From: Platerodrilus igneus
Taxonomy: Eukaryota > Arthropoda > Insecta > Coleoptera > Lycidae
Direction of reading: 5' to 3'
NCBI GenBank assembly: GCA_036346225.1
Contig: JARFIW010000668.1
Coordinates: forward strand, 2,873,001 to 2,937,000
Length of the DNA: 64,000 nt
Shown here: piece by piece, positions 11,860 through 57,946 of the stretch
Layout of the letters: the number at the start of each line of letters is the position of its first letter
Numbering within the stretch: position 1 is the stretch's first letter
The notes under the pieces: generated by a model
Databases searched by the model: none
What the model was told of the DNA's origin: nothing
The model's input: only the letters and a program-made list of their open reading frames with translations
Program-made: the position numbers and the translations under genes

Positions 11860-13847
11860 TTAAGTAGCATTTGGGTCAGCAGAGAATGGCTTAAGGTCTT
11901 TAATATGCCACCTGCCCTGGCGTTTTCCTTCAGCATTCTGAAGTTTGTAGATAAGGGGACTAATGACACGAATGACCTTACAAAGGATGAATTTAGGGGC
12001 TAATTTTGAAGAAAATTTCTTAGATGCATCCGATAAGACATAATTCTTTTTCCAAACTTGTTCGCCCAAGGCGAAGGAAATATTTCGTTTACGTAAGTTA
12101 TAATGGTCCTTACTCTTTTCGTAAGCTTTTAACAAATTTTTTCTAACGTCGTTAAAGATAGAAGGTAATGACTGTTGGTCCTTGTCCCAACGTACTTTAT
12201 CGTCAAATTCAATTACGTTAGTATCGTCAGGCACTAAACCATAGTAACTCCCATCGATTGGGGTATATCTTCCAAAAACAAGAAATGACGGAGTGAATTG
12301 GGTTGCTTCGTGTTTAGATGTACGCAAAGCTTGAGCAATTTTAAAAATATGTTCATCCCATGTAGTATGGTCTGAATCAATATAGGAAGAGATAGCTGTA
12401 ATTAAAACTCTATTTACTCTTTCGGTAGGGTTTACTTGGGGATGGTATTTTGCGTTAAACCAAATTTTGTGTACTTTGTAATTTTTAACGAAATTCTGAA
12501 AATCTTTAGAGATAAATTGTGCCCCATTGTCACAAAGGATAATCTGGGGAACACCAAAGATAAGAAATACATTTTGTTCTAGGAATTTAATTATAGCTGC
12601 AGATGTAGCTTTACGTAAGGGTTGCACCATAACAAATTTAGAAAACCAATCGGTGACAACTAAAAGATATTGGTTACCTCTTTTCGATCGGGGGAGAGGT
12701 CCTAATAAGTCAAGCGAAATTAATTGAAAGGGATAAGATACACGTTTAAAGTTACCCATTAAACCAGGACGAGCATCTTGTGAACTCTTATGAGAACCAC
12801 AAATTTTACAGTTTTTAATATAGCGACAAACAGATTGCTTTAGTGTGGACCAGTAATATAATTCAGATATTTTAGCGAGAGTTTTTGTAACACCAAGGTG
12901 CGCAGCTATGGGATCATCATGACATAATTTGAGCACCTCACTACGGTTAGCAGTAGGCACGACAAGTTTCCATTCAGGAATATTCGATATTTTATGTGGA
13001 GAAGATACAAATTTATATAGTCTATTATTAGTTACACGAAAGGTAGGGAATTTATCGGGATTATCAGAAACTTTTTTAATCATATTGAGATACCAGGTAT
13101 CAGGAATTAAATTTGGAAGGTTAAGAGAAACAACATCACGAGATAAGGCATCAGGTGCGATATTTAATTTGCCAGGCCTATGCCTAACATCAAAGGTAAA
13201 TTGAGATATACGCAAGTTCCATCTTGCTAAACGACCTGCTGGTTGTTTCAAGTTATTAAGCCAAGTGAGGGCTGCACAATCAGTGATTACGGTAAAATGT
13301 GTACCTTCGACATATCCTCTAAATTTCTCGATGCCAAAGATAACGCCCAATAATTCTCGTTCGGTAGCAGAGTATTAGGCGGCTCCGTGGCGTAGTGGTA
13401 TGTGTGTGACTACTACGCCCAAGGTCCCGGGTTCGAATCCCGACACGGTCCGCTTGAAAAATGTTAGGCGAGCATTTTTCGCAAAAATACACCCTCGTTC
13501 GGATGAGAGGTAAAATGGAGGTCCCGTATGTGAGTGTTGTCACGCACTTTAAAGATCCCTACCTTGCTTGGAACAGCAAGGGTTCGGCAAAAATTCAAAA
13601 TTTTCCAGGTAAAAAAAAAAACCTTGCTTCCTGGCCAATGTAGTACCTTCGGGTGGAGCATTGGAAAATCAAATGTAATGGTAGCAGAGTATTTTTGTTC
13701 GGCAGAAGTTAAGGCACGACTTGCATAGGCGATTGTATGTTCTAAACCATTTCTTACCTGGAACAACATTGCACCTAAACCAGTAAGCGAGGCATCGGTT
13801 TGTATATAAAACTTTTCATCGAAATTGGGTGAAATTAAAATAGGTGC
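11860..13847 (-). pseudogene. Ty3/Gypsy pol remnant: RNase H and integrase
   Basis: On the minus strand this encodes the end of a Gypsy pol. An RNase H-like segment starts near 13835 (YIQTDASL) and includes AEQKYSAT just beyond a SINE insertion. Then come FTVITDCAALTWLNNLK near 13290 and the H2C2 integrase finger (HDDPIAAHLGV, CKICG near 12800). The integrase core has D in LDLLGP, D in CDNGAQF and E in NPTERVN. A GPY/F-like C-terminus ends at 11860. The 496-residue ORF from 13350 is open. It is interrupted only by the SINE at 13377-13679, after which the frame is continuous. Gag, protease and RT are absent because a LINE fragment begins abruptly at 13848. Integrase inserts the element's cDNA into chromosomes. 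Confidence 0.9.
13377..13679 (+). mobile_element. tRNA-derived SINE with 14-bp target duplication
   Basis: A 303-bp insertion is flanked by the perfect 14-bp repeat ggtagcagagtatt at 13363-13376 and 13680-13693. Its head is tRNA-like with a perfect RNA polymerase III box A (TGGCGTAGTGG, 13388-13398) and box B (GGTTCGAATCC, 13430-13440). An unrelated body of about 220 bp follows, ending in an A/T-rich tail. It lies inside the RNase H coding region of the Gypsy relic, in the opposite orientation. The body motif AAAATACACCCTCGTTCGG (13484-13502) is nearly shared with the 5' part of the RTE LINE at 27114. Confidence 0.9.
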
Positions 13848-15140
13848 TTGCTAATATCTATGAACAATGCAGCTGACAGAGTATGCTTTTTGTTTAATGC
13901 AGAGTACACATCACTCAAAAAATTGCGAATAGCATCCATAGTGGATTTATTTTCACAGAAACCAAACTGTGCAGAAGAAAAGACATCGAATTTTTTTGCA
14001 AAATTAACAATCCTTATTTTAACTAATGTTTCAATTAATTTCGAGAATACTGACAACAAGCAAATAGGTCTGAAGTTGTTTGCAACAAATGGACCTCCCT
14101 TGCGAAGCGGAATGACAATTGCATGTTTTAGACATGCAGGAAACACACCTAATTGGAATGACTCATTTATTAGATCAGTAAGATATTTTAATAGATTCAT
14201 AGGCAGGCAGAGCAAAACCTTAGCAGGAATATTATCATCACCTGTACAATGTTTGTTTTTAAATGATTTGATGATGTCCAGAATTTCATATTCGTCTGTT
14301 GGAAATAACATAAATTTTTTTTCGAACTGTTTACAATTATTTCTTAGAAAGTCAGTTGCATCAGACAATGATGAGTTATTGTTAGAGACTAGCTTAAGTG
14401 CAGTTGTTGCAAAATGTGAGTTCAGGAAACTAGCCACATCCTTTTCTGGTATATTTTCAAGAGGAATATGAGAGGTATGAGACTTTGAACTACCTGTCAA
14501 TGCGTCGATAAGCTTCCATGACTCCTTTTGCCTATTCTTAGAGAGTAAAATACGGTTTGTTAATGAAAGTGATTTAGCCAAATTGATTACAGTTTTAAAT
14601 ATTCTTTTGTAATTTAAGTAATAGTTCTTAATAAAAGACGATGATGGAAAACGTTTGTAAAGGATATGTAAAAATTTTTTATTTTTGGCAGATATTTTGA
14701 TGCCTCTTGTCAGCCATTTTTTCCTTTTTATATAATGACTTTTTTTTATAGGAAAAGCCACTTCAAAAGCTGATGAAATGTTGTCAATTAAAATCTGGAA
14801 TTTTTTATTTAAATTGGAGAAAGAGGGGATGTGTTGATCTGAGCACACAGTTCAGTGAATTTAATCATATTATTTTGACTAAATTTTCGAATGTGCCGAA
14901 TTTTATGGTGGTTTAAAAATTGAGAGGTACCGAAAGTAAAATAAATAAAATTGTATTCGGAGAGATCATTCTCAATTATCTCTGTGGTCATTTGTGTAGA
15001 TGAATTTATGTTGGTAATTATATAATCAATACAGAAACTCGAAGAATTGGTGACTCTATTATCATTATTAACATGCATTTGCAAATTATGAAATCTCAGA
15101 AGCCTCGTTAACCTGCTAACATTTTTATCAAAGATATTAT
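13848..15140 (-). pseudogene. Internal fragment of a CR1/Jockey-like LINE (endonuclease end to RT block 3)
   Basis: Minus-strand frames encode the end of an endonuclease (NRVTNSSSFCIDYIITNI near 15060), the linker (KKWLTRGIKISAKNKKF near 14710) and the first RT blocks: HCTGDDNIPAKVL near 14250, FRPICLLSVFSKLIETL near 14060, AQFGFCENKSTMDAI near 13970 and ALFIDIS near 13860. It stops exactly where the catalytic Asp-bearing block continues in intact relatives and joins the Gypsy RNase H at 13847/13848. The frame is open for 337 residues, so this fragment is little decayed. Both its 5' and 3' ends are missing, unusual for a LINE, which normally keeps its 3' end. Confidence 0.85.
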
Positions 15141-44996: not shown

Positions 44997-46975
44997 ATGG
45001 GACTTATATATGTCCCAATAGTGTTAATTATTGGGATATTATATTTTATCAGTATTGAGTAACCTATACATTCAAAATTTTCGTTTTAGAATGGATAAAC
45101 CTTTGTCAGACAAAGAGCTCCAAGATATTGTGGATTCTGAAGAAGAATTAGACCCACTTCAAGACAGTGATGATAGTCATATACATAAAAACTATATACA
45201 AACATCTAGCGACGATGTTCCTTCAAGTGAAGTTGAAGGTACTGCATTGATACAAATTTTGGATGATGCGTTTACTTTTGAAGATGAAGAATTCAACGGC
45301 GAAAATGAAAAGGAAAACGAAGTTCTGAAAAGTAATTTAGAAGTTGCGTTTGACTGGACTAGAAAAACTGAAAATTTTATACCGAAACATAATATTCCAC
45401 AAGAAAAACAAACAATTGTACTGTGTAAAATAACAAACAAGTCTTCAGAAATGGATGCTGTGTTCGAAATATTTCCTAAAAGCTTATTTGTATGGATTGC
45501 TCAATGCACCAATCAACGATTAGAAATTGTAGAAAAACATCTAAAAGATATATTCAAAAGACATCGAGTGCAGAAATAATGATCGTGCTTGGTTGTTCTC
45601 TCATAATGAGTTACAATCGTTTAGCAGCATATCACATGTATCGGTCCAACAGAAAATCTTTAGGTAATGATGAAATTAAAAGTGCCATATCTAGGGATAG
45701 ATGTCAGTTATTTGTATCAAAATTGTACTTCAATAACCCCGAAAAATTAAAAGACGCTTTCAAGGAGTATTAAATAGAAGAAGTATTATTCTATCTAAAA
45801 AAAACTTTTTTGTCTGCCAGAAGTGATAGTACGTATCAATCAATTGACGAGACGATAACAAAATTCAAAGGAAGATTATCAATGAAACAATATATTCCTC
45901 TAAAACCAATCAAACGAGGTATAAAACTATGGACAAGATGTGATTCCAAAACTGGGCATGTATACGATACAAATATTTACTCCGGAAAAGAAAATTCCAC
46001 ACAAGAAGGCACACTTGGTGAAAGAGTTGTGGAGAAATTAACCAGATCAATTCGAAATATGAACATATGTTTATGTATTGACCGATTTTTTCACCTCAAT
46101 CCATCTTTTACATACACTATACCATATGCTGCCGTTGGAACGTGCATAAAGACTAGAAAAAATGTTCCAAAATTTAAAGGTAAACTGCAGAGAGGAGACA
46201 GTGAAATGATGACATGTAAAGAAGGCATAATTTGCACTCGTTGGCAAGACACTAGAGAGTTCTTGGTAGTAAGCAACTGTCACGGTGGCAATATCGGTAC
46301 TATAGAAAGAAAAGCAAAAGAAGGCAGTGAAAAAGAAATTACTTGTCCCAATTCAATTATGTTTTATAATGAATTTATGGGAAGCGTCGATCACGCCGAT
46401 CAAATGATATCACAGTATGATTTGGATCGAAAAAGCTCCAATTGGTGGCGAAAGGTTTTCTACAAGCTATTCATGACTGCAATATATAATGCATATATAA
46501 TATGCAATGAAACAAGACGTTCAAAACTGCCGTTTATAAACTTTATTATACCAGCAGCAGAAAGTATGATAGCCATTAGCAAATCCCAGCTGGGCAAGAA
46601 GAAAATAATGAAGAGAGGACGTCCCTCAAATAGAACCAAATTTATGGATAATGTTGGGGATCCTCTGCCTATTCCGGTAAATTCAAGAAAACGATGTGTA
46701 CGATGTGCTGGTTTCAAAAAAGAAAAGAAGATAAAGATCAATTGCCAAATGTACACAGTAGCGCTCTGTAATGATTGTTTGCTAAGTATCATACTTGATT
46801 ACCTTGTATATATGTAATAAAAAAGAATGTTGAATTACAATGATGTTTTTCTTTTATCTTTTTTTCTTTTTAGTGCAACATATATTTTATGTGCTCCACT
46901 ATTTTACTATTATAAAATACTGTTGGGACACATACGGCCCACTCACCAATACTATTGGGACAATATGTCCCAATT
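44997..46975 (+). mobile_element. piggyBac-like transposon
   Basis: A piggyBac transposase gene is bracketed by an inverted pair: TGGGACTTATATATGTCCCA running to AATAGT (44998-45022) on the left, and ACTATTGGGACAATATGTCCC on the right (46951-46971). Each arm is itself a GGGAC...GTCCC palindrome. A third GGGAC block lies at 46925. I could not identify flanking TTAA duplications, so the outermost ends are uncertain and may lie a little outside this range. Confidence 0.65.
45091..46817 (+). pseudogene. piggyBac transposase, frameshifted
   Basis: Translation starts at ATG 45091 (MDKPLSDKELQDIVDSEEEL), an acidic N-terminus typical of the family. After frameshifts near 45500-45580 and 45770, the catalytic region runs YQSIDETITKFKGRLSMKQY near 45840, GIKLWTRCDSKTGHVYDTNI near 45920 (first Asp in VYD), CLCIDRFFHLNP near 46072 (second Asp) and MGSVDHADQMISQYD near 46378 (third Asp). 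All three acids of the piggyBac DDD triad are therefore present. The C-terminal cysteine-rich domain is visible as CVRCAGFKKEKKIK and CNDCL near 46700-46780. The gene ends at TAA 46815-46817. Two or three frameshifts make it inactive as written. Confidence 0.9.
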
Positions 46976-51056: not shown

Positions 51057-51653
51057 TGTAACGGGCTACTGCTACCGCGTTTCTTTAATTTAAAACAAGT
51101 AATAACCAGAGTCTTTATTACTCACTGTTCACAAGTCTAATTAACAGTATATGCCTTATTTATAGATGTTTTCAGTCCAATTAACAATGAAGCACTATTA
51201 CACTAATGAATTTACAAGCACTAATTTCTTTTTAAACTAACTTCTTTACCATAGGTCCATTAACAACACTAACACGACTATTTATTTATTATACACTTCT
51301 ATTTATTTATGTATACTACAAGCTGCATGTACATTAGACACGGCATATAACATTTATGTATACACTTGAACTTCCCAAAAGCTCAACTACTATTACTTTA
51401 CAACGATATAATTTATTTTAGACATTCTAGTATAGACTGACCCTTGCATTTATTAGCGGTCTTATATATACTCTGAGTTAAAGATATGACTCATCCTCTA
51501 GTAATTACGAGAAGCTTCCTGGTCTATTGAGAATAAACAGTGCTGGCGGCGTTTTGTGTGTTTGATTGCTAGAAGAATTCTCGAATCCTGAAGACTATGC
51601 AGAGCCTACAGCGCTTGCGTGTTTGACGGGTTGCCAAATAGTAGCTCGCAACA
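51057..51653 (-). repeat. 3' LTR of the Gypsy element
   Basis: This 597-bp copy matches 57352-57946 end to end, with one 2-bp length difference (CCAGAGTC versus CCAGTC). In element sense it follows the polypurine tract. It is preceded in window order by the ATAT target copy. Confidence 0.95.
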
Positions 51654-51670
51654 CTGCCCCCCCTTTAAAA
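51654..51670 (-). other. Polypurine tract
   Basis: In element sense TTTTAAAGGGGGGGCAG lies directly upstream of the 3' LTR. This is the expected primer site for plus-strand cDNA synthesis. Confidence 0.85.
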
Positions 51671-51762
51671 CCGCTACGTCTCGTAACTGTAAATACATTT
51701 TGACGCCAATTCGATGAATGATTACTGTATCGGCAGCTATCTCCTCTGGTGCATCCACCACG

Positions 51763-54114
51763 TCATTGGAAGTAACAGTCAACACTCTTTTCTTGGTCTT
51801 GGTAGGCAACCGGCTGATAACAACAAACAAGAACCTGGACGTTGGTTTCCTGGAAAACTACTTCTAGCATATTTCGGACTATCCTCCAATCTAAGCGATC
51901 CAGTCCACAGCCTAGCTTGGGCACCGCTAATTTCGTTACTCTATTTTTCAACATCTGCGCCTTAAGATTTAGCAAAGCCTCCCATAGATGTCCATAACTA
52001 GGTCTCTGCCATGAAGAATTTTTGGTGACCAGATAGTAAACATAACGATTTTTATCCTGAAGAACCAAAGCTTTTCCTACAGTTGGCTGCTGTTGTACTA
52101 ATTCATCCACACATCCAAACTTTTTCTTGAAAACAACAGCTATTCCCCTTGACATTGCCAAATCTTGAGCTACATAATGTGCAAGGGAATACTCTTCTGG
52201 TGCTCTAAACAGATCTTGCTGTTTTTCAACAACAACGCCAAATCTCGCCTTAGTGGAACCACAATACGCCGCCATAAAGCTCTCAAAATCTACATTTGGC
52301 TCAGGATTAATAACTTGTCGAATACCATTCTCATCATCCGAGCTTTCCTGGTTGTTGCCAGCGTAGGATGTTAAACGGTCAAAGTGTACCATTTTCGGTT
52401 TACCACGGGGAGATCTTCTGATCCGGTACACTACATCATTAATCATTTTCATCACTTCGTACGGGCCTTCCCATTGCCTTTGTAATTTTGGCGACAACCC
52501 ACGTTTTCTTTGTGGATTATACAACCACACCAAATCTCCCGGTTCATAACCACCTTCTTGTGCTCTCGTGTCATATTGTGATTTCATCCGATTGCTTGCT
52601 GCCTGGATATTCTTTCGGACGTTTTCGTGAATGCTATTTGATCTTTCGCGAAGCTTACTAACGTAATCTTCACCTGCGATCTCTTCTCCATGTTTAAAAC
52701 CAAACTGAAGATCACATGGTAGCCGCAATTTACGTCCTAGCATTACGCAAGCGGGCGAGTATCCTGTGCTGTCATGTACCGAAGATCGGTACGCCAGTAG
52801 GAACAAATGTAAATATTGGTCCCAGTCTTGTTGATGTTCAGAGACAACTTTGGTCAGGTACTTCCCTAACGTCCTGTTTATTCTTTCAACCATTCCATCC
52901 GATTGGGGATGAAGTGGCGTGGTTCTAGTCTTCCTGATTCCAAGATGCTTGCAGACGTTTTGAAACAACGCCGATTCGAAGTTCCGACCTTGATCGGAGT
53001 GTAATTCCAACGGAACTCTAAAACGACAAAACAACTCCCTGATTAGTACATCTGCAACCGTCGCGGCTTCTTGGTTAGGTATAGCATATGCCTCCGGCCA
53101 TTTGGTAAAATAATCCATTGCAACCAAGATGTATTTATTTCCTTTCTCTGATTCAGGAAACGGACCAGCTATATCAATGGCTACCCTCTCAAAAGGATTC
53201 CCCACGTTATACTGTATCATTGGGGCTTTCCGTTTTGTGACCGGGCCATTTGCAGTGGCACACAATTCACATTTCCGGCACCACTCCTTCACATCATCTT
53301 TGCAGTTCACCCAATACAATCTTTCTCTCACTCTTTCGAGAGTTCTTTTCACGCCAAAGTGCCCTCCGGAAATACCATCGTGCAAATGCTGCAACACTTC
53401 CGTCACTCTGCTTCTCGGCACTATCACTTGAAGTCTCTCAGTGCCATCTTCACATTCCAGGCGTCGTTTCAAGATTCTATTTCCAATCATCAAGGAGTCC
53501 CACTGTGCCCAGTATGCCTTCAGGCTCCTACTTAAAATACTAATTTCTTCCCAAGCTGGTCGTTGTCTTCTATTTTTCCACTCAATAATACGTCCAAATT
53601 CGTCGTCCTTCTTCTGGTCTTCTTGTATTCTTTCGGGTTGCCAAATATCATCGGTCAACATCATTCTATGGATGACACTTATCTTCTCTTCCATCTTGGA
53701 GCAATGATTGCAGTCCACCGGACAAGGTCTCCTTGATAAAGCGTCTGCATTCCGATGGCTGGTTCCTACACGATGTTCTGTGTCAAAGTGATGTTCCTGC
53801 AGCCGCTCTATCCACCTTGCAACTTGCCCTTCAGGATTTCGAAACTGCAGTAACCATTTTAGTGCAGCATGGTCTGTTCTCATTAGGAATTTACGGCCGT
53901 ATAAGTACTTATAAAAGTGCTCTACAGATTTGACGACGGCCAACAGCTCCCTTCTTGTCACACAATAGTTCCTTTCTGGCCATGACAAGACCTTGCTGAA
54001 ATACCCAATAACTTTTTCTTGTCCGTCCTGAACTTGAGAAAGAACGCTTCCTATAGCTGTGTTACTGGCATCAGTATCCAACACAAATTTCCCCTCCATC
54101 CGTGGATAACTCAA
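51763..54114 (-). CDS. Gypsy pol C-terminal ORF: RNase H, integrase and OARD1-like macro domain
   Basis: An uninterrupted 783-residue frame (first Met at 54114, in phase with upstream RT beyond two stop codons). RNase H lies at about 8-130 (FVLDTDASNTAIG, RTDHAALKWLL, NADALSRRP). The integrase H2C2 finger is at about 243-285 (HLHDGISGGHFG, CRKCELC). The integrase core has D314 (AIDIAGP), D374 (HSDQGRNFE) and E410 (DGMVERINR). The GPY/F module is at about 523-586 (WEGPYEV). After an acidic linker, residues 628-766 form a macro domain with GIAVVFKKKFG (657-667), YYLVTK (K698) and GCGLDRLDW (D739). K698 and D739 are 41 residues apart, as are catalytic Lys84 and Asp125 in human OARD1/TARG1. The macro domain would bind or hydrolyse ADP-ribose on proteins. 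It ends at stop 51763. Confidence 0.93.
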   Translation of the reverse strand: MSYPRMEGKFVLDTDASNTAIGSVLSQVQDGQEKVIGYFSKVLSWPERNYCVTRRELLAVVKSVEHFYKYLYGRKFLMRTDHAALKWLLQFRNPEGQVARWIERLQEHHFDTEHRVGTSHRNADALSRRPCPVDCNHCSKMEEKISVIHRMMLTDDIWQPERIQEDQKKDDEFGRIIEWKNRRQRPAWEEISILSRSLKAYWAQWDSLMIGNRILKRRLECEDGTERLQVIVPRSRVTEVLQHLHDGISGGHFGVKRTLERVRERLYWVNCKDDVKEWCRKCELCATANGPVTKRKAPMIQYNVGNPFERVAIDIAGPFPESEKGNKYILVAMDYFTKWPEAYAIPNQEAATVADVLIRELFCRFRVPLELHSDQGRNFESALFQNVCKHLGIRKTRTTPLHPQSDGMVERINRTLGKYLTKVVSEHQQDWDQYLHLFLLAYRSSVHDSTGYSPACVMLGRKLRLPCDLQFGFKHGEEIAGEDYVSKLRERSNSIHENVRKNIQAASNRMKSQYDTRAQEGGYEPGDLVWLYNPQRKRGLSPKLQRQWEGPYEVMKMINDVVYRIRRSPRGKPKMVHFDRLTSYAGNNQESSDDENGIRQVINPEPNVDFESFMAAYCGSTKARFGVVVEKQQDLFRAPEEYSLAHYVAQDLAMSRGIAVVFKKKFGCVDELVQQQPTVGKALVLQDKNRYVYYLVTKNSSWQRPSYGHLWEALLNLKAQMLKNRVTKLAVPKLGCGLDRLDWRIVRNMLEVVFQETNVQVLVCCYQPVAYQDQEKSVDCYFQ
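51817..52233 (-). CDS. OARD1/TARG1-like macro domain fused to integrase (domain entry)
   Basis: Residues 628-766 of the pol frame. The order of motifs follows the OARD1/TARG1 branch of macro domains: an N-terminal DLFRAPEEYSLAHYVAQDL strand-helix, the ADP-ribose loop GIAVVFKKKFG, a YVYYLVTK strand carrying the presumed nucleophilic Lys, a helix WEALLNLKAQ, and the second loop VPKLGCGLDRLDW with the presumed catalytic Asp. OARD1-type enzymes remove ADP-ribose from acidic residues and deacylate O-acyl-ADP-ribose. No stop or frameshift separates it from integrase, so it would be made as the tail of Gag-Pol. A short tail (YQDQEKSVDCYFQ) follows. Activity is inferred, not shown. Confidence 0.9.
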
Positions 54115-54174
54115 AATTGGTGCTGTAACTAGTAGCCGTTTCAGTTGCTAAAATGCACTGTGGCAGTCGTCATT

Positions 54175-55513
54175 CTAATCATATTCTTGTCCATCTTCGG
54201 TTTGTTTCGTTAACGGTTTGGAAATGTTTGCAAACCCAAGTATAAAACGTCGGTAATATGTGCACAATCCTAGAAAACTGCGTAGTTGGTGTATATCTGC
54301 TGGTGTAGGCCACTCCTGTACTGTTTTTATTTTGTCAGGGTCAGCTCTTATTCCGGTCTCCGAAACGACATGTTCTAAGTACTTCACCACTTTTCCAAAT
54401 AGGTGACACTTCTTGGGGCTAAATGTAAGGTTTGCCCCGCGTAATCTTTGGAATATCTCCTCTAGGTTCTTGAGGTGTTCTTCAAAAGACCGGCCTAACA
54501 CTATCACGTCGTCTAGGTACACCAGGCATGTTTTCTAGGACAGTCCACGCAGTATCGACTCCAACAATCGTTCAAAAGTAGCAGGAGCATTGCATAATCC
54601 AAATGGCATGACCTTGAACTGCCATAATCCAGTTCCAATTTATTTTCTTTATCGTTTGGCTCCAAGCCTACCTGCCAGTATCCGCTTTTCAAGTCCAAGG
54701 TCGAAAACCATTTGGATCCGGATAGAGTATCCAAGGTGTCATCAATTCTGGGCAAAGGATAGCTGTCTTTCTTGTCACATTGTTAAGCCGCCGGTAGTCT
54801 ACACAAAACCTTGTCGACCCGTCCTTTTTCTTGACAAGCACTACCGGGGATGCCCATGGACTGTTCGAGGGTTCAATCACTCCTTGTTTTTCCATATCGG
54901 TGATAATTTGATCGGCTTCTTTACATTTTGCCAAAGGAAGCCGCCTGGGGTGTTGTCTTATCGGTTGCGCAAATCCAGTATTGATCTTGTGTTGCACAAC
55001 ATTCGTCCTTCCTTTCTCACTATCATCCAGTGCAAACACACCTCGATATCGTCCGACCAGTTCTTTTACCTTACCCAGTTGGTCGCCGTTTAATCCTTGA
55101 CACGAGGGTATCAACATATCCAGCAATTTGTGTGGGCCACCGTTGGCTAGTTGATCTTTTGTGTCGTCCACACAACGTTTAATATGGCATACTGGAATGC
55201 AACTTCCCACAATCATGTCTTTCTTCAGGGTCACCGTATGCGGATTAATGTTCAGCATCCTTACTGGTATCATATTTCGAAACTTTACTAGCGTTCTTCC
55301 AACAAGTAATCCATCCTGACCCATTCCCGATTCAGTTGCTTCCATCATGCATACTTGTCCTTCCCGGAGCGTACCATCCGTGCGTCCCATTACAATCATT
55401 TCCGCATTCTCGGGTATTTTCATATCACAAATCATTCGAACTTGCATCGTCTGGTTATTCGTACCTTGAAATGGAATCCCATCATCATCTATCCGAAGCA
55501 CATTTTCTTTCAT
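54175..55513 (-). pseudogene. Gypsy reverse transcriptase, interrupted by frameshifts and stops
   Basis: From 55513 the frame continues the post-protease region ([17 protein letters not shown]) into the [19 protein letters not shown] near 54940, [20 protein letters not shown] near 54850, [14 protein letters not shown] near 54800. In a shifted frame comes [20 protein letters not shown] near 54745 (first catalytic Asp), then a damaged stretch, then MYLDDVIVLGRSFEEHLKN from 54522 (catalytic YLDD) to SFLGLCTYYRRFILGFANIS near 54255. Lesions are a frameshift near 54760, a deletion plus frameshift around 54520-54650, and two in-frame stop codons near 54175 and 54148 before the RNase H frame resumes. 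RT copies the element RNA to DNA; this copy cannot do so as written. Confidence 0.9.
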
Positions 55514-55531
55514 GTTTACATGAAACCCATA

Positions 55532-56089
55532 TTATCTCATGAGATCCATTCTCAAGATCACTTCTTCTGTAATTTCAGCTACCAACATTCGATGATTAAT
55601 TAGTTTGTCCCCAATTGCCAACGTAACGGCAGTCTCTCCGTGAGTACAAATTTTCTCACCACTTGCCGTTCGAAGACACACCGATATAGATAGCACTCTT
55701 CCACGACCAACCAAATCTGGTCTCACAATAGTTTTTGTCGCTCCTGTATCCACGAGTAATCGGACAATCCTACCATTAATTCTACTATCGATATAAATGC
55801 TGCCCAGACTTCCCATCGACGATGCAGCACGGATGATAATCTCCGGGGCACTACGCTGTGCTGTCGACGTTCGCGCCCTTACATTGATCTGCTTTAACTC
55901 AACCGGTTGTTTCTTTGGTTGAGTACAGCGTCTCTGCAAATGACCAACTTCACCGCAGTTCCAGCATCGCAGACGCAATCGCCGCGGTCGTTGTAGTTCC
56001 AGCCTTTCTGCCACACGGTTGACTATTTCATCTATGCTGTTCTGAGCTTGACCAGGTTCCTCTAAGGCAGACCGAACTTTGTGACCCAT
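55532..56089 (-). pseudogene. Gypsy nucleocapsid zinc knuckle and aspartic protease
   Basis: The 185-residue frame carries a CCHC knuckle (CWNCGEVGHLQRRC, residues about 42-55) that binds RNA in the particle. A retroviral-type aspartic protease follows, with active site LLVDTGATKTIV near residue 112 and the second flap-end motif EEVILRMDLMR at the end (normally ILGMD). The frame overlaps the upstream gag frame at 56062-56089 in another phase. It stops at TAA 55532-55534, only 19 bases before the next in-phase Met, so one stop codon separates protease from the downstream pol frame. Confidence 0.88.
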
Positions 56090-56607
56090 CCTGTGTGATG
56101 TCTGCTTAGCGCATGGGCCAGTGCGTCATCCAACATTTTTGGCCGTGCTAGTCTTAGCGCTTGCTGTATTTCGCCATCCTTAACGCCATCCACAAATGTT
56201 TGGACAGCAAGTTGTTCGAGGAAGCTATCTGGTGCCGTTGGATATGCCAATTTAACTAACCTGGCAATGTCAGTTTCGAATTCTTGCAGGCTTTCACTTG
56301 TCTTTTGCGAGCGGTTCTTAACTTGTGCGTGGTAAATCTGTTGAAGGTGAGCATCTCCATATCTCATCTCAAGCTTTGATGTTAAGAGGCCGTAATCATT
56401 CTGCTGGTGATCGTGAATCGTTTGGAAGATGTTAAGAGCTTTCCCCCGTAGGGCCACTATTAAGGAGATAGCTTTCTCTTTGTTGCACCAACCGTTGGCT
56501 ATTGCAGCAGCTTCAAATTGTTTCAAATATGTGGGCCAAGGTGTTTTGTCATCGAATGTGGGTGGTTTCACTTTAAATTTAGACGGTATTGACTCGCTCT
56601 TTTCCAT
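56062..56607 (-). pseudogene. Gypsy gag capsid region
   Basis: The frame starts MEKSESIPSKFKVKPPTFDD. It contains the capsid-like block TPWPTYLKQFEAAAIANGW, ISLIVALRGKALNIFQTI, LLTSKLEMRYGD and FLEQLAVQTFVDGVKDGEIQ, a pattern typical of arthropod Ty3/Gypsy Gag. It overlaps the zinc-knuckle/protease frame at its end (56062-56089). The last residues after LSRHHTG are out of phase, so a frameshift lies near 56090. Its start lies 6 bases beyond the stop of the coiled-coil frame. The two may have been one Gag now split by a frameshift. Confidence 0.85.
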
Positions 56608-56612
56608 GCTTC

Positions 56613-57149
56613 TTATTTCTGGAATGTTCTTGGTAATTCAAGTGGCCGCGTTGTTAGTGAAATCACCTGTTCTTGCAGCCTCATCACATCTTCTTCCATT
56701 TTTATCAATTTACTGTCCAACTTTTGCTCAACTGTTTTTACCTGTTCAGTGAAATCTTCTTTCAATGCAATGGAGCATTCCATTAATCTTTGTTCTAATG
56801 TGGCTGTCTTTTCATTCAACTTTTCTTCTAATTTCGCAGCATTTTCGTTTAACTTTTCTTCTATTTTCTCAGCATTTTCACTAAACTTTATTTCCATTTT
56901 CGCAGCATTTTCACTAAACTTTTCCATTTTCTCAACATTTTCGCTAAACTTTTCGGTAAGGTTTAATTCCAGTTTAACTGACCTCACTACGTTTTCATTT
57001 AGTGTCACTTCCAGTTTAGCCGACCTCTCTTCCATTTTCTCAGCATTTTTGTTTAACTTTTCTTCTATACTGGATTTAAAATCCTTAAGAAAATTCATTA
57101 AAGTTTCTGCGTCTATCTTACTTTGACTTCTTGTTACAGGCATATACAA
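56613..57149 (-). CDS. Gypsy gag N-terminal coiled-coil region
   Basis: The 178-residue frame begins MYMPVTRSQSKIDAETLMNF. Most of it (residues about 25-150) is a run of short diverged repeats of the type EKFSENAEKMEEKLNENAAK, with hydrophobic residues in heptad spacing. This predicts a long coiled coil for Gag multimerisation. The repeats also create a false open frame on the opposite strand (56749-57126). The frame ends at TAA just before the capsid frame. Confidence 0.82.
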   Translation of the reverse strand: MYMPVTRSQSKIDAETLMNFLKDFKSSIEEKLNKNAEKMEERSAKLEVTLNENVVRSVKLELNLTEKFSENVEKMEKFSENAAKMEIKFSENAEKIEEKLNENAAKLEEKLNEKTATLEQRLMECSIALKEDFTEQVKTVEQKLDSKLIKMEEDVMRLQEQVISLTTRPLELPRTFQK

Positions 57150-57332
57150 ACTACTTTAATGTCTTTAGACTTGTGTGTTCTCCTTCTAAATTAATCACTA
57201 TATACTCCACACAGGCTGACAGTACTATAACCTGGATGCAAGCATATTTTGTGACAGCGTTCTATGATCAGACGAGTTAAATGCCCTTTTTTAGGTAACA
57301 AAATGGGATACTTTGAATTATAATCTAAAGAT

Positions 57333-57350
57333 GAATTTCTCAGACGACCA
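57333..57350 (-). other. Primer-binding site
   Basis: One base inside the 5' LTR, the minus strand reads TGGTCGTCTGAGAAATTC. It starts with the TGG complementary to a tRNA CCA end. The matching tRNA was not determined. Confidence 0.65.
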
Positions 57351-57351
57351 G

Positions 57352-57946
57352 TGTAACGGGCTACTGTTACCGCGCTTTTTTAATTTAAAACAAGTAATAA
57401 CCAGTCTTTATTACTCACTGTTCACAAGTCTAATTAACAGTATATGCCTTATTTGTAGATGTTTTCAGTCCACTTAACAATGAAGGACTATTGCACTAAT
57501 GAATTTACAAGCACTAATTTCTTCTTAAACTAACTTCTTTACCATAGGTCCATTAATAACACTAACACAACTATTTATTTATTATACACTTCTATCTATT
57601 TATGTATACCGCAAGCTGCATGTACATTAGACACAGCATATAACATTTATGTATACACTTGAACTTCCCAAAAGCTCATCTACTATTACTTTACAACGAT
57701 ATAATTTATATTAGACATTCTAGCATAGACTGACCCTTGCATTTACTAGCGGTCTTATATATACTCTGAGTTAAAGATATGACTCATCCTCTAGTAATTA
57801 CGAGAAGCTTTCCGGTCTATTGAGAATAAACAGTGCTGGCGGCGTTTTGTGTGTTTGATTGCTAGAAGAATTCTCGAATCCTGAAGACTATGCAGAGCCT
57901 ACAGCGCTTGTGTGTTTGACGGGTTACCTAATAGTAGCTCGCAACA
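57352..57946 (-). repeat. 5' LTR of the Gypsy element
   Basis: This 595-bp copy of the LTR is followed in window order by the ATAT target duplication (57947-57950). In element sense it should contain promoter and leader start, but I see no unambiguous TATA box. Confidence 0.95.

Follow-up and report, generated by a model that had tools for sequence, protein, structure and literature searches.

The window analyzed in this work is a stretch of 64,000 nucleotides from the beetle Platerodrilus igneus (Lycidae; assembly GCA_036346225.1, contig JARFIW010000668.1, positions 2,873,001 to 2,937,000). On its reverse strand, at 51057..57946, lies a Ty3/Gypsy long terminal repeat (LTR) retrotransposon of 6.9 kb, several frames of which are broken. 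It belongs to a beetle Ty3/Gypsy family of high copy number, in which a captured TARG1/OARD1 macro domain, followed by a CCCH zinc finger, forms the end of Pol. The fusion is carried by an open frame of 783 codons (51763..54114), encoding RNase H, integrase, an integrase C-terminal region of the GPY/F type, and the macro domain (residues 632-763; 51826..52221). Pfam matches follow one another in the order RT_RNaseH, Integrase_H2C2, rve, Integrase_p58_C, and Macro, with a short linker before the last, and the integrase triad is formed by D314, D374, and E410. In the Protein Data Bank (PDB), the closest match of this Pol frame is Ty3 Gag-Pol (7q5b, E = 7.2e-49, residues 228-577), with human OARD1 second (residues 631-763). 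No chromodomain was found in Pfam scans of the window and the relatives of the element, which is thus not classed with the chromoviruses.

The element is assigned on the basis of its LTR pair, its target-site duplication, and the Pol match to Ty3 Gag-Pol; all its features lie on the reverse strand. The 5' LTR (57352..57946) and the 3' LTR (51057..51653), delimited by pairwise alignment, share 572 of 595 aligned bases, the 23 mismatches corresponding to a Kimura two-parameter distance (K2P) of 0.040. Read in the sense direction, they start with TGTT and end with TACA, and ATAT flanks the element as a 4-bp target-site duplication. A purine-rich tract, AAAGGGGGGGCAG, abuts the 3' LTR (51654..51666) and is likely the polypurine tract. 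The gag region begins with a coiled-coil-like open reading frame (ORF) at 56613..57149, whose Apolipoprotein-type Pfam match lies far below the cut-off, and continues in a capsid-like part at 56062..56607, which has no Pfam match and is 74% identical to the related protein P0002 across 56107-56583. It is followed by a CCHC knuckle and an aspartic protease at 55532..56089 (zf-CCHC, E = 7e-6; gag-asp_proteas, E = 6.5e-8). The linker between protease and reverse transcriptase (RT), with the start of RT recognized by eye, occupies 54689..55513; here no Pfam match is significant, and the relative P0012 aligns over 55145-55966. A further RT fragment lies in a different frame at 54175..54522 (RVT_1, E = 5.5e-8). 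The order protease, RT, RNase H, and integrase is therefore present together with the DDE triad, with the upstream parts in separate frames. As assembled, the copy is not intact, since gag, protease, and RT are split; part of this breakage may be an assembly artefact. Behind the macro domain, only a remnant of the zinc finger is left (51718..51777), with a TGA at 51763-51765 inside it and the last ligand shifted by one residue. Rfam and tRNA scans of the window gave no matches.

The initial annotation of this DNA, made from the sequence alone, had described the unbroken frame from RNase H to the macro domain inside a complete LTR pair. The frame, its domain order, and both LTRs stand as described, while the broken upstream frames and the TGA-cut finger had been missed.

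Identity and origin of the macro domain

The macro domain belongs to the TARG1/OARD1 branch, as similarity to OARD1, the TARG1 fold, the positions of the catalytic residues, and the grouping in the tree all agree. When the C-terminal piece was compared with the PDB by phmmer, human OARD1/C6orf130 (2eee) was found at E = 1.3e-36, and the next match, a DarG-type chain, at 6.7e-6. The NCBIfam DarG model matched at E = 8.9e-12 with 44.9 bits, well below its own cut-off of 250. An AlphaFold2 (AF2) model built from 31 sequences reached a predicted local distance difference test (pLDDT) score of 87.1. In a fold search with this model, human TARG1/C6orf130 entries took ranks 1-8, with 4j5s first (E = 2.6e-17, template modelling score TMt 0.94) and DarG macrodomains next. 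The initial annotation had named K698 and D739 as the catalytic pair, and both residues lie where it put them. D739 (codon at 51898..51900) is aligned with the D of the human OARD1 motif GCGLDRL, which we take to be the catalytic D125 of TARG1. K698 (codon at 52021..52023) is aligned with the K of YYLITK, that is, K84, which PMC8501950 describes as a catalytic residue, for ADP-ribose linked to thymidine in DNA too, the K84A mutant being inactive.

In a tree of 44 macro domains, 10 element rows were split off by a branch with support of 97/95, and these rows were grouped with six beetle host-type rows at 99/97, the element clade being sister to the host type. An earlier tree of 42 rows agrees (element branch 92/90). 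The rows were chosen by hand and included the window, nine element proteins (one standing for the 21 of Molorchus), four host-type proteins, the human protein, and 27 others drawn from three protein searches, one of which found 2285 proteins, the best 120 of which were listed and were mostly from vertebrates and corals. OARD1 of other insect orders is not represented, two host-type rows are metagenome fragments of assumed organism, and the host row L049 is long-branched; a beetle origin therefore means an origin in beetles or a close insect lineage. When the integrase and macro trees of seven families were compared, the macro tree was weakly supported.

The gene structure of the host adds to this picture. 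The OARD1 gene of the same genome (contig C549, locus L051) has splice-like borders at CCAG/GCGAGAC and AACAG/GTTAGT (the slash marks the border), the first of them within the macro domain, and at this place the domain of the element is uninterrupted, which fits capture via mRNA. The macro domain of the element shares common descent with beetle OARD1, and the capture from a host gene that the initial annotation had proposed is supported. Recent origin from the present-day OARD1 of the species is rejected, given that the element rows group separately, in a clade beside the beetle host-type rows. A second gene of OARD1 type was also seen in this genome (L049, G000:C861:4987559-4988533); it is a single open frame of 577 codons, strongly diverged and with an altered GCGLDRL loop, possibly a retrocopy or a specialized paralog.

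Distribution, copies, and selection

A search with residues 628-783 against about 5.8 billion proteins gave 28 proteins from 162 candidates: 21 from Molorchus minor, one each from Harmonia axyridis, 'Erysiphe pulchra', and Diabrotica, and four from metagenomes. According to precomputed Pfam annotation, 25 of the 28 carry an integrase domain in the same protein; the Diabrotica protein resembles the host gene and not the element. A query with the macro domain only found 10 proteins, including P0029, P0030, and P0034 with finger-like tails (one cysteine is lost in P0034). This search also returned two short Aquatica leii models; P0038 starts with an integrase-like stretch (by eye). Among viral contigs scanned for the macro domain, six stretches matched the pattern, and none encodes a relative. 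Two further observations concern these relatives. The 5369-base contig of a fungal assembly labelled Erysiphe pulchra (P0002) carries an element that is sister to the one of Harmonia (99/85), which is probably ladybird contamination or else horizontal transfer. At the start of the gag-side protein, residues 8-40 of Molorchus P0021 match a SAP-like domain below the cut-off (22.0 bits versus 23.9, E = 1.2e-4).

In the genome of P. igneus itself (2.71 Gb, 1723 contigs), at least 150 macro matches, including that of the window, are 92-100% identical. This number is a lower bound, since 13263 candidates passed the first look and 150 were scored; an inner stop is absent in 139 of these 150. With the integrase core as a query, at least 150 places were scored at 94-100%. 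Among 20 copies checked from the macro-chosen sample described below, 18 have both LTRs at the expected distance, so that the prediction of multiple LTR-bounded copies with the fusion was borne out. Their LTRs differ by K2P 0.000-0.035, and some insertions are therefore recent. Duplications of 4 bp (ATAT, ATAC, GTAT, GTAA) flank 11 of the 20; in several of the other nine, the alignment to the window LTR stopped before the LTR edge, and duplication could not be properly judged there. That the fusion is an artefact of assembly or annotation has a next-to-nil probability: single-base deletions in the assembly do partly resemble base-calling errors, but the fusion occurs in at least 150 places of one genome and, in addition, in other named species and metagenomic contigs. 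A copy unique to the window is rejected on the same grounds.

Selection was followed in two samples of copies, each giving 41 rows (40 copies and the window). The first was drawn by macro similarity, stepping roughly through the list of 150 scored matches, and leaned to long open frames. As this choice biases the macro ratio of nonsynonymous to synonymous substitution rates (dN/dS) downward, a control sample was chosen by integrase, in rough steps down the integrase list of 150, skipping copies already sampled. In the macro-chosen sample, pairwise dN/dS (Nei-Gojobori method, NG86) came to 0.227 in integrase (residues 213-612), 0.163 in the macro domain, and 0.113 in the finger-bearing tail. 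The per-site ratio of nonsynonymous to synonymous variants (N/S) was 0.12, 0.10, and 0.07, respectively, for variants found in at least five copies, and 0.58, 0.38, and 0.41 for single-copy variants. In the integrase-chosen sample, in which at least half of the macro domain was aligned in all 40 copies (in one copy the alignment extended over no more than roughly three quarters of the domain), macro dN/dS was 0.197, with per-site N/S of 0.12 for variants in at least five copies versus 0.57 for single-copy ones. Variants shared by at least two of these copies comprised 12 nonsynonymous and 22 synonymous changes (tested against neutrality with kappa 1-6, P = 4e-7 to 7e-5), versus 46 and 23 among single-copy variants (Fisher P = 0.003), although, the copies being related, such counts are not fully independent events.

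The presumed catalytic residues show the same constancy. K698 and D739 are retained in all 41 macro-chosen rows; in the integrase-chosen sample, all 34 rows ungapped at K698 have K there (seven are gapped, and seven copies have a single-base deletion at that place), and all 39 rows ungapped at D739 have D (two gapped). A stop lies inside the macro domain in 4 of 41 rows in each sample. The macro domain is under purifying selection in the sampled copies. The initial annotation had named three outcomes that would speak against it, namely a copy unique to this place, the lack of a macro match, and relaxed selection; none of these was found.

In relatives, the frame continues past the macro domain into a C-x7-C-x5-C-x3-H finger. 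The spacing C-x7-9-C-x5-C-x3-H is satisfied in relatives and in most copies of the genome, but not in the window copy. Counted in the frame of the window regardless of upstream indels, all four ligands are intact in 36 of 40 macro-chosen and 37 of 40 integrase-chosen copies, whereas in the rest a stop or a gap intervenes or a ligand is missing. The finger probably binds RNA or another nucleic acid.

Other mobile sequences were seen on the same stretch. A second Ty3/Gypsy RNase H-integrase frame (11860-13350, reverse strand) stops after integrase and has no macro domain. An ORF at 13835-14848 (reverse strand) resembles, by eye, a fragment of non-LTR reverse transcriptase, and another at 45810-46817 (forward strand) has the look of what is presumably a piggyBac-type transposase.

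Possible roles of the macro domain

To judge from the conserved residues and fold, the macro domain is likely an active ADP-ribosyl hydrolase. The reading that we favor, and regard as fairly probable, is that a selected ADP-ribose eraser on integrase clears the single-stranded RNA or complementary DNA (cDNA) of the element itself and/or its integration gaps. The domain would enter the particle and the pre-integration complex as part of integrase or cleaved from it. There it could take uracil- or thymine-linked ADP-ribose off the single-stranded RNA or cDNA of the element, and/or strip ADP-ribose from acidic protein residues at the integration gap, while the CCCH finger might help to keep it in contact with RNA or single-stranded DNA. 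Copying would profit from an eraser, as ADP-ribose linked to bases would obstruct reverse transcription or gap repair. The retrotransposon cycle passes through RNA and cDNA in single-stranded form and through integration joints with gaps, and a TARG1 module with a finger may keep all of these free of ADP-ribose. The chances that the domain acts in cis, on nucleic acids of the element rather than on host proteins, are about even.

Several papers bear on the substrate. Single-stranded telomeric DNA is marked by PARP1 when exposed, and TARG1 takes the mark off again (PMC11102865); PARP10 adds uracil-linked ADP-ribose to single-stranded RNA, and TARG1-like proteins of human, Drosophila, and bacteria remove ADP-ribose in this linkage (PMC13036486). 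Together with the DNA activity of TARG1 (PMC8501950), these reports make base-linked ADP-ribose on single-stranded RNA or DNA an additional candidate substrate, beside the PARP-type ADP-ribosylation whose reversal, at integration sites or in antiviral defence, the initial annotation had suggested as a possible role. More specifically, the marks erased might be base-linked ADP-ribose on the RNA genome or cDNA of the element itself. Insects would then restrict retroelements through ADP-ribosylation of their nucleic acids, with a captured host TARG1 as the counter-measure; we hold this extended version to be rather unlikely.

Several observations weigh against the eraser reading. The Pfam Macro match (PF01661, residues 651-748, E = 2.7e-4) scores 21.3 bits, below the cut-off of 22, and in eight relatives scanned it is below the cut-off in seven and unlisted in the eighth; because the OARD1-specific comparisons are strong, this shortfall seems to reflect the distance of the model from the TARG1/OARD1 branch. 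The finger matches are weak: among eight proteins scanned, PF00642 reaches its cut-off (20.5) in one, stays below it in four, and is unlisted in three, and PF15663 is below its cut-off throughout. In a model of the P0029 macro domain with its finger, the latter is not confidently folded (pLDDT of about 40 there). The catalytic residues may also serve binding, so that their conservation alone does not prove catalysis. Finally, among the 40 integrase-chosen copies, the macro domain is hit by a frame-shifting indel in 26 and is free of one in 13, which limits what can be claimed on the number of copies encoding a whole protein.

Most of these indels remove a single base and turn up repeatedly at the same few sites, in runs of 3-5 equal bases. 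At six of seven sites, the carriers of a shared deletion lie nearer to one another than in almost any shuffle (as close in 0-24 of 500), whereas at one they do not (233 of 500), and recurrent deletions combine haphazardly across copies (L099-L138). We regard them as mostly unpolished base-calling errors in young repeats, shared decay being also possible. Taken as decay, the indels and the broken window copy would suit a passenger, that is, a host exon caught by read-through and carried without function. This explanation is very improbable, however, as several beetle genera carry the fusion, macro dN/dS is 0.16-0.20 versus 0.23 for integrase, and across families the macro domain is 52-63% identical, compared with 59-69% for the C-terminal part of integrase.

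If catalysis were secondary or absent, the domain could be a targeting module that anchors integrase by binding to ADP-ribosylated chromatin or to sites of DNA damage, as the chromodomain does with histone marks at the corresponding place in chromovirus integrases. Its place after the integrase C-terminal domain and the binding of ADP-ribose by the TARG1 fold (4j5s complex) are in keeping with such tethering. The duplications of the window and of the 11 copies are AT-rich 4-mers and point to a local site preference, the cause of which is not thereby given; a short AT-rich preference needs no reader. Moreover, a domain that only reads ADP-ribose would not have to retain both catalytic residues, and no ungapped copy in the two samples has lost them. 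We consider targeting unlikely.

Counter-defence in trans, in which the domain would remove ADP-ribose from antiviral targets of the host after release by the protease of the element or while acting in cytoplasmic particles, much as alphavirus and coronavirus macrodomains do, appears improbable as well. It is in line with the fold kinship to alphavirus macrodomains, although this is weaker than that to TARG1, and with the CCCH finger, which suggests RNA association through weak matches; the macro-domain ORFs found occasionally in fish epsilon-like retroviruses point in the same direction. Yet a domain fused to integrase is more easily reconciled with work inside the particle than across the whole cytosol, and, to our knowledge, ADP-ribosylation immunity of insects against retroelements has not been established.

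Returning to an eraser fused to integrase, its presence would mean that ADP-ribosylation matters to the retrotransposon life cycle and suggests that ADP-ribose marks hinder the copying or integration of the element. We know of few retroelements that keep a captured host enzyme under selection, and this one is a natural reagent for asking whether base ADP-ribosylation of RNA or single-stranded DNA restricts mobile DNA in animals.

Comparison with known systems

Human OARD1/TARG1 (C6orf130; 4j5s, 2eee) belongs to the same macro branch and shares the catalytic K and D and the fold (TMt 0.94). It differs from the domain of the element in being a stand-alone host enzyme, with solved chains of 146-160 residues and neither integrase nor zinc finger. 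The beetle host OARD1-like genes (Aromia P0048, Diabrotica P0027, and C549/L051 of the same genome) are the nearest relatives in the tree (99/97), with macro identity to the window of 44% for the L051 exon and 40% for P0027. In contrast to the element, they have no pol domains, and P0048, P0027, and L051 have a common extra C-terminal region.

Macrodomains are also carried by viruses. Those of alphaviruses represent the macro fold in a replicating element, but their fold match is weaker (rank 16 and below); coronaviruses carry macrodomains as well. The bacterial DarG antitoxin macrodomain is the next-best fold match and an NCBIfam match; it is a toxin-antitoxin partner, 24-25% identical in the fold match, and takes ADP-ribose off DNA according to PMC8501950. 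If base-linked marks were indeed erased by the element, this would be a eukaryotic parallel of bacterial DarTG-type defence.

For retroelements, SIRT6 and LINE-1 are treated in PMC4695847. In fish, an ORF with a macro domain is occasionally present in epsilon-like endogenous retroviruses (Basta et al. 2009, as cited in PMC4977317), which are LTR retroelements that likewise gained a macro-domain gene. By that account, they differ in belonging to Retroviridae and in holding the gene as an additional ORF, whereas the domain described here is fused to Pol, of TARG1 type, and from an insect. No description of a macro domain-integrase fusion in Ty3/Gypsy was found in the open-licence PMC literature searched, so the claim of the initial annotation that it is undescribed there stands within this scope, next to the related fish precedent. 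Macro-domain capture by LTR retroelements thus has a precedent in fish, and it is the TARG1-type Pol fusion in beetle Ty3/Gypsy that was not found described. Chromoviruses are Ty3/Gypsy elements with a chromodomain at the integrase C-terminus, which reads histone marks. The beetle element has its extra domain at the same position of Pol, but in the form of an enzyme fold with a CCCH finger, and the eraser reading would accordingly put an enzyme, and not a chromatin reader, at the C-terminal position of integrase.

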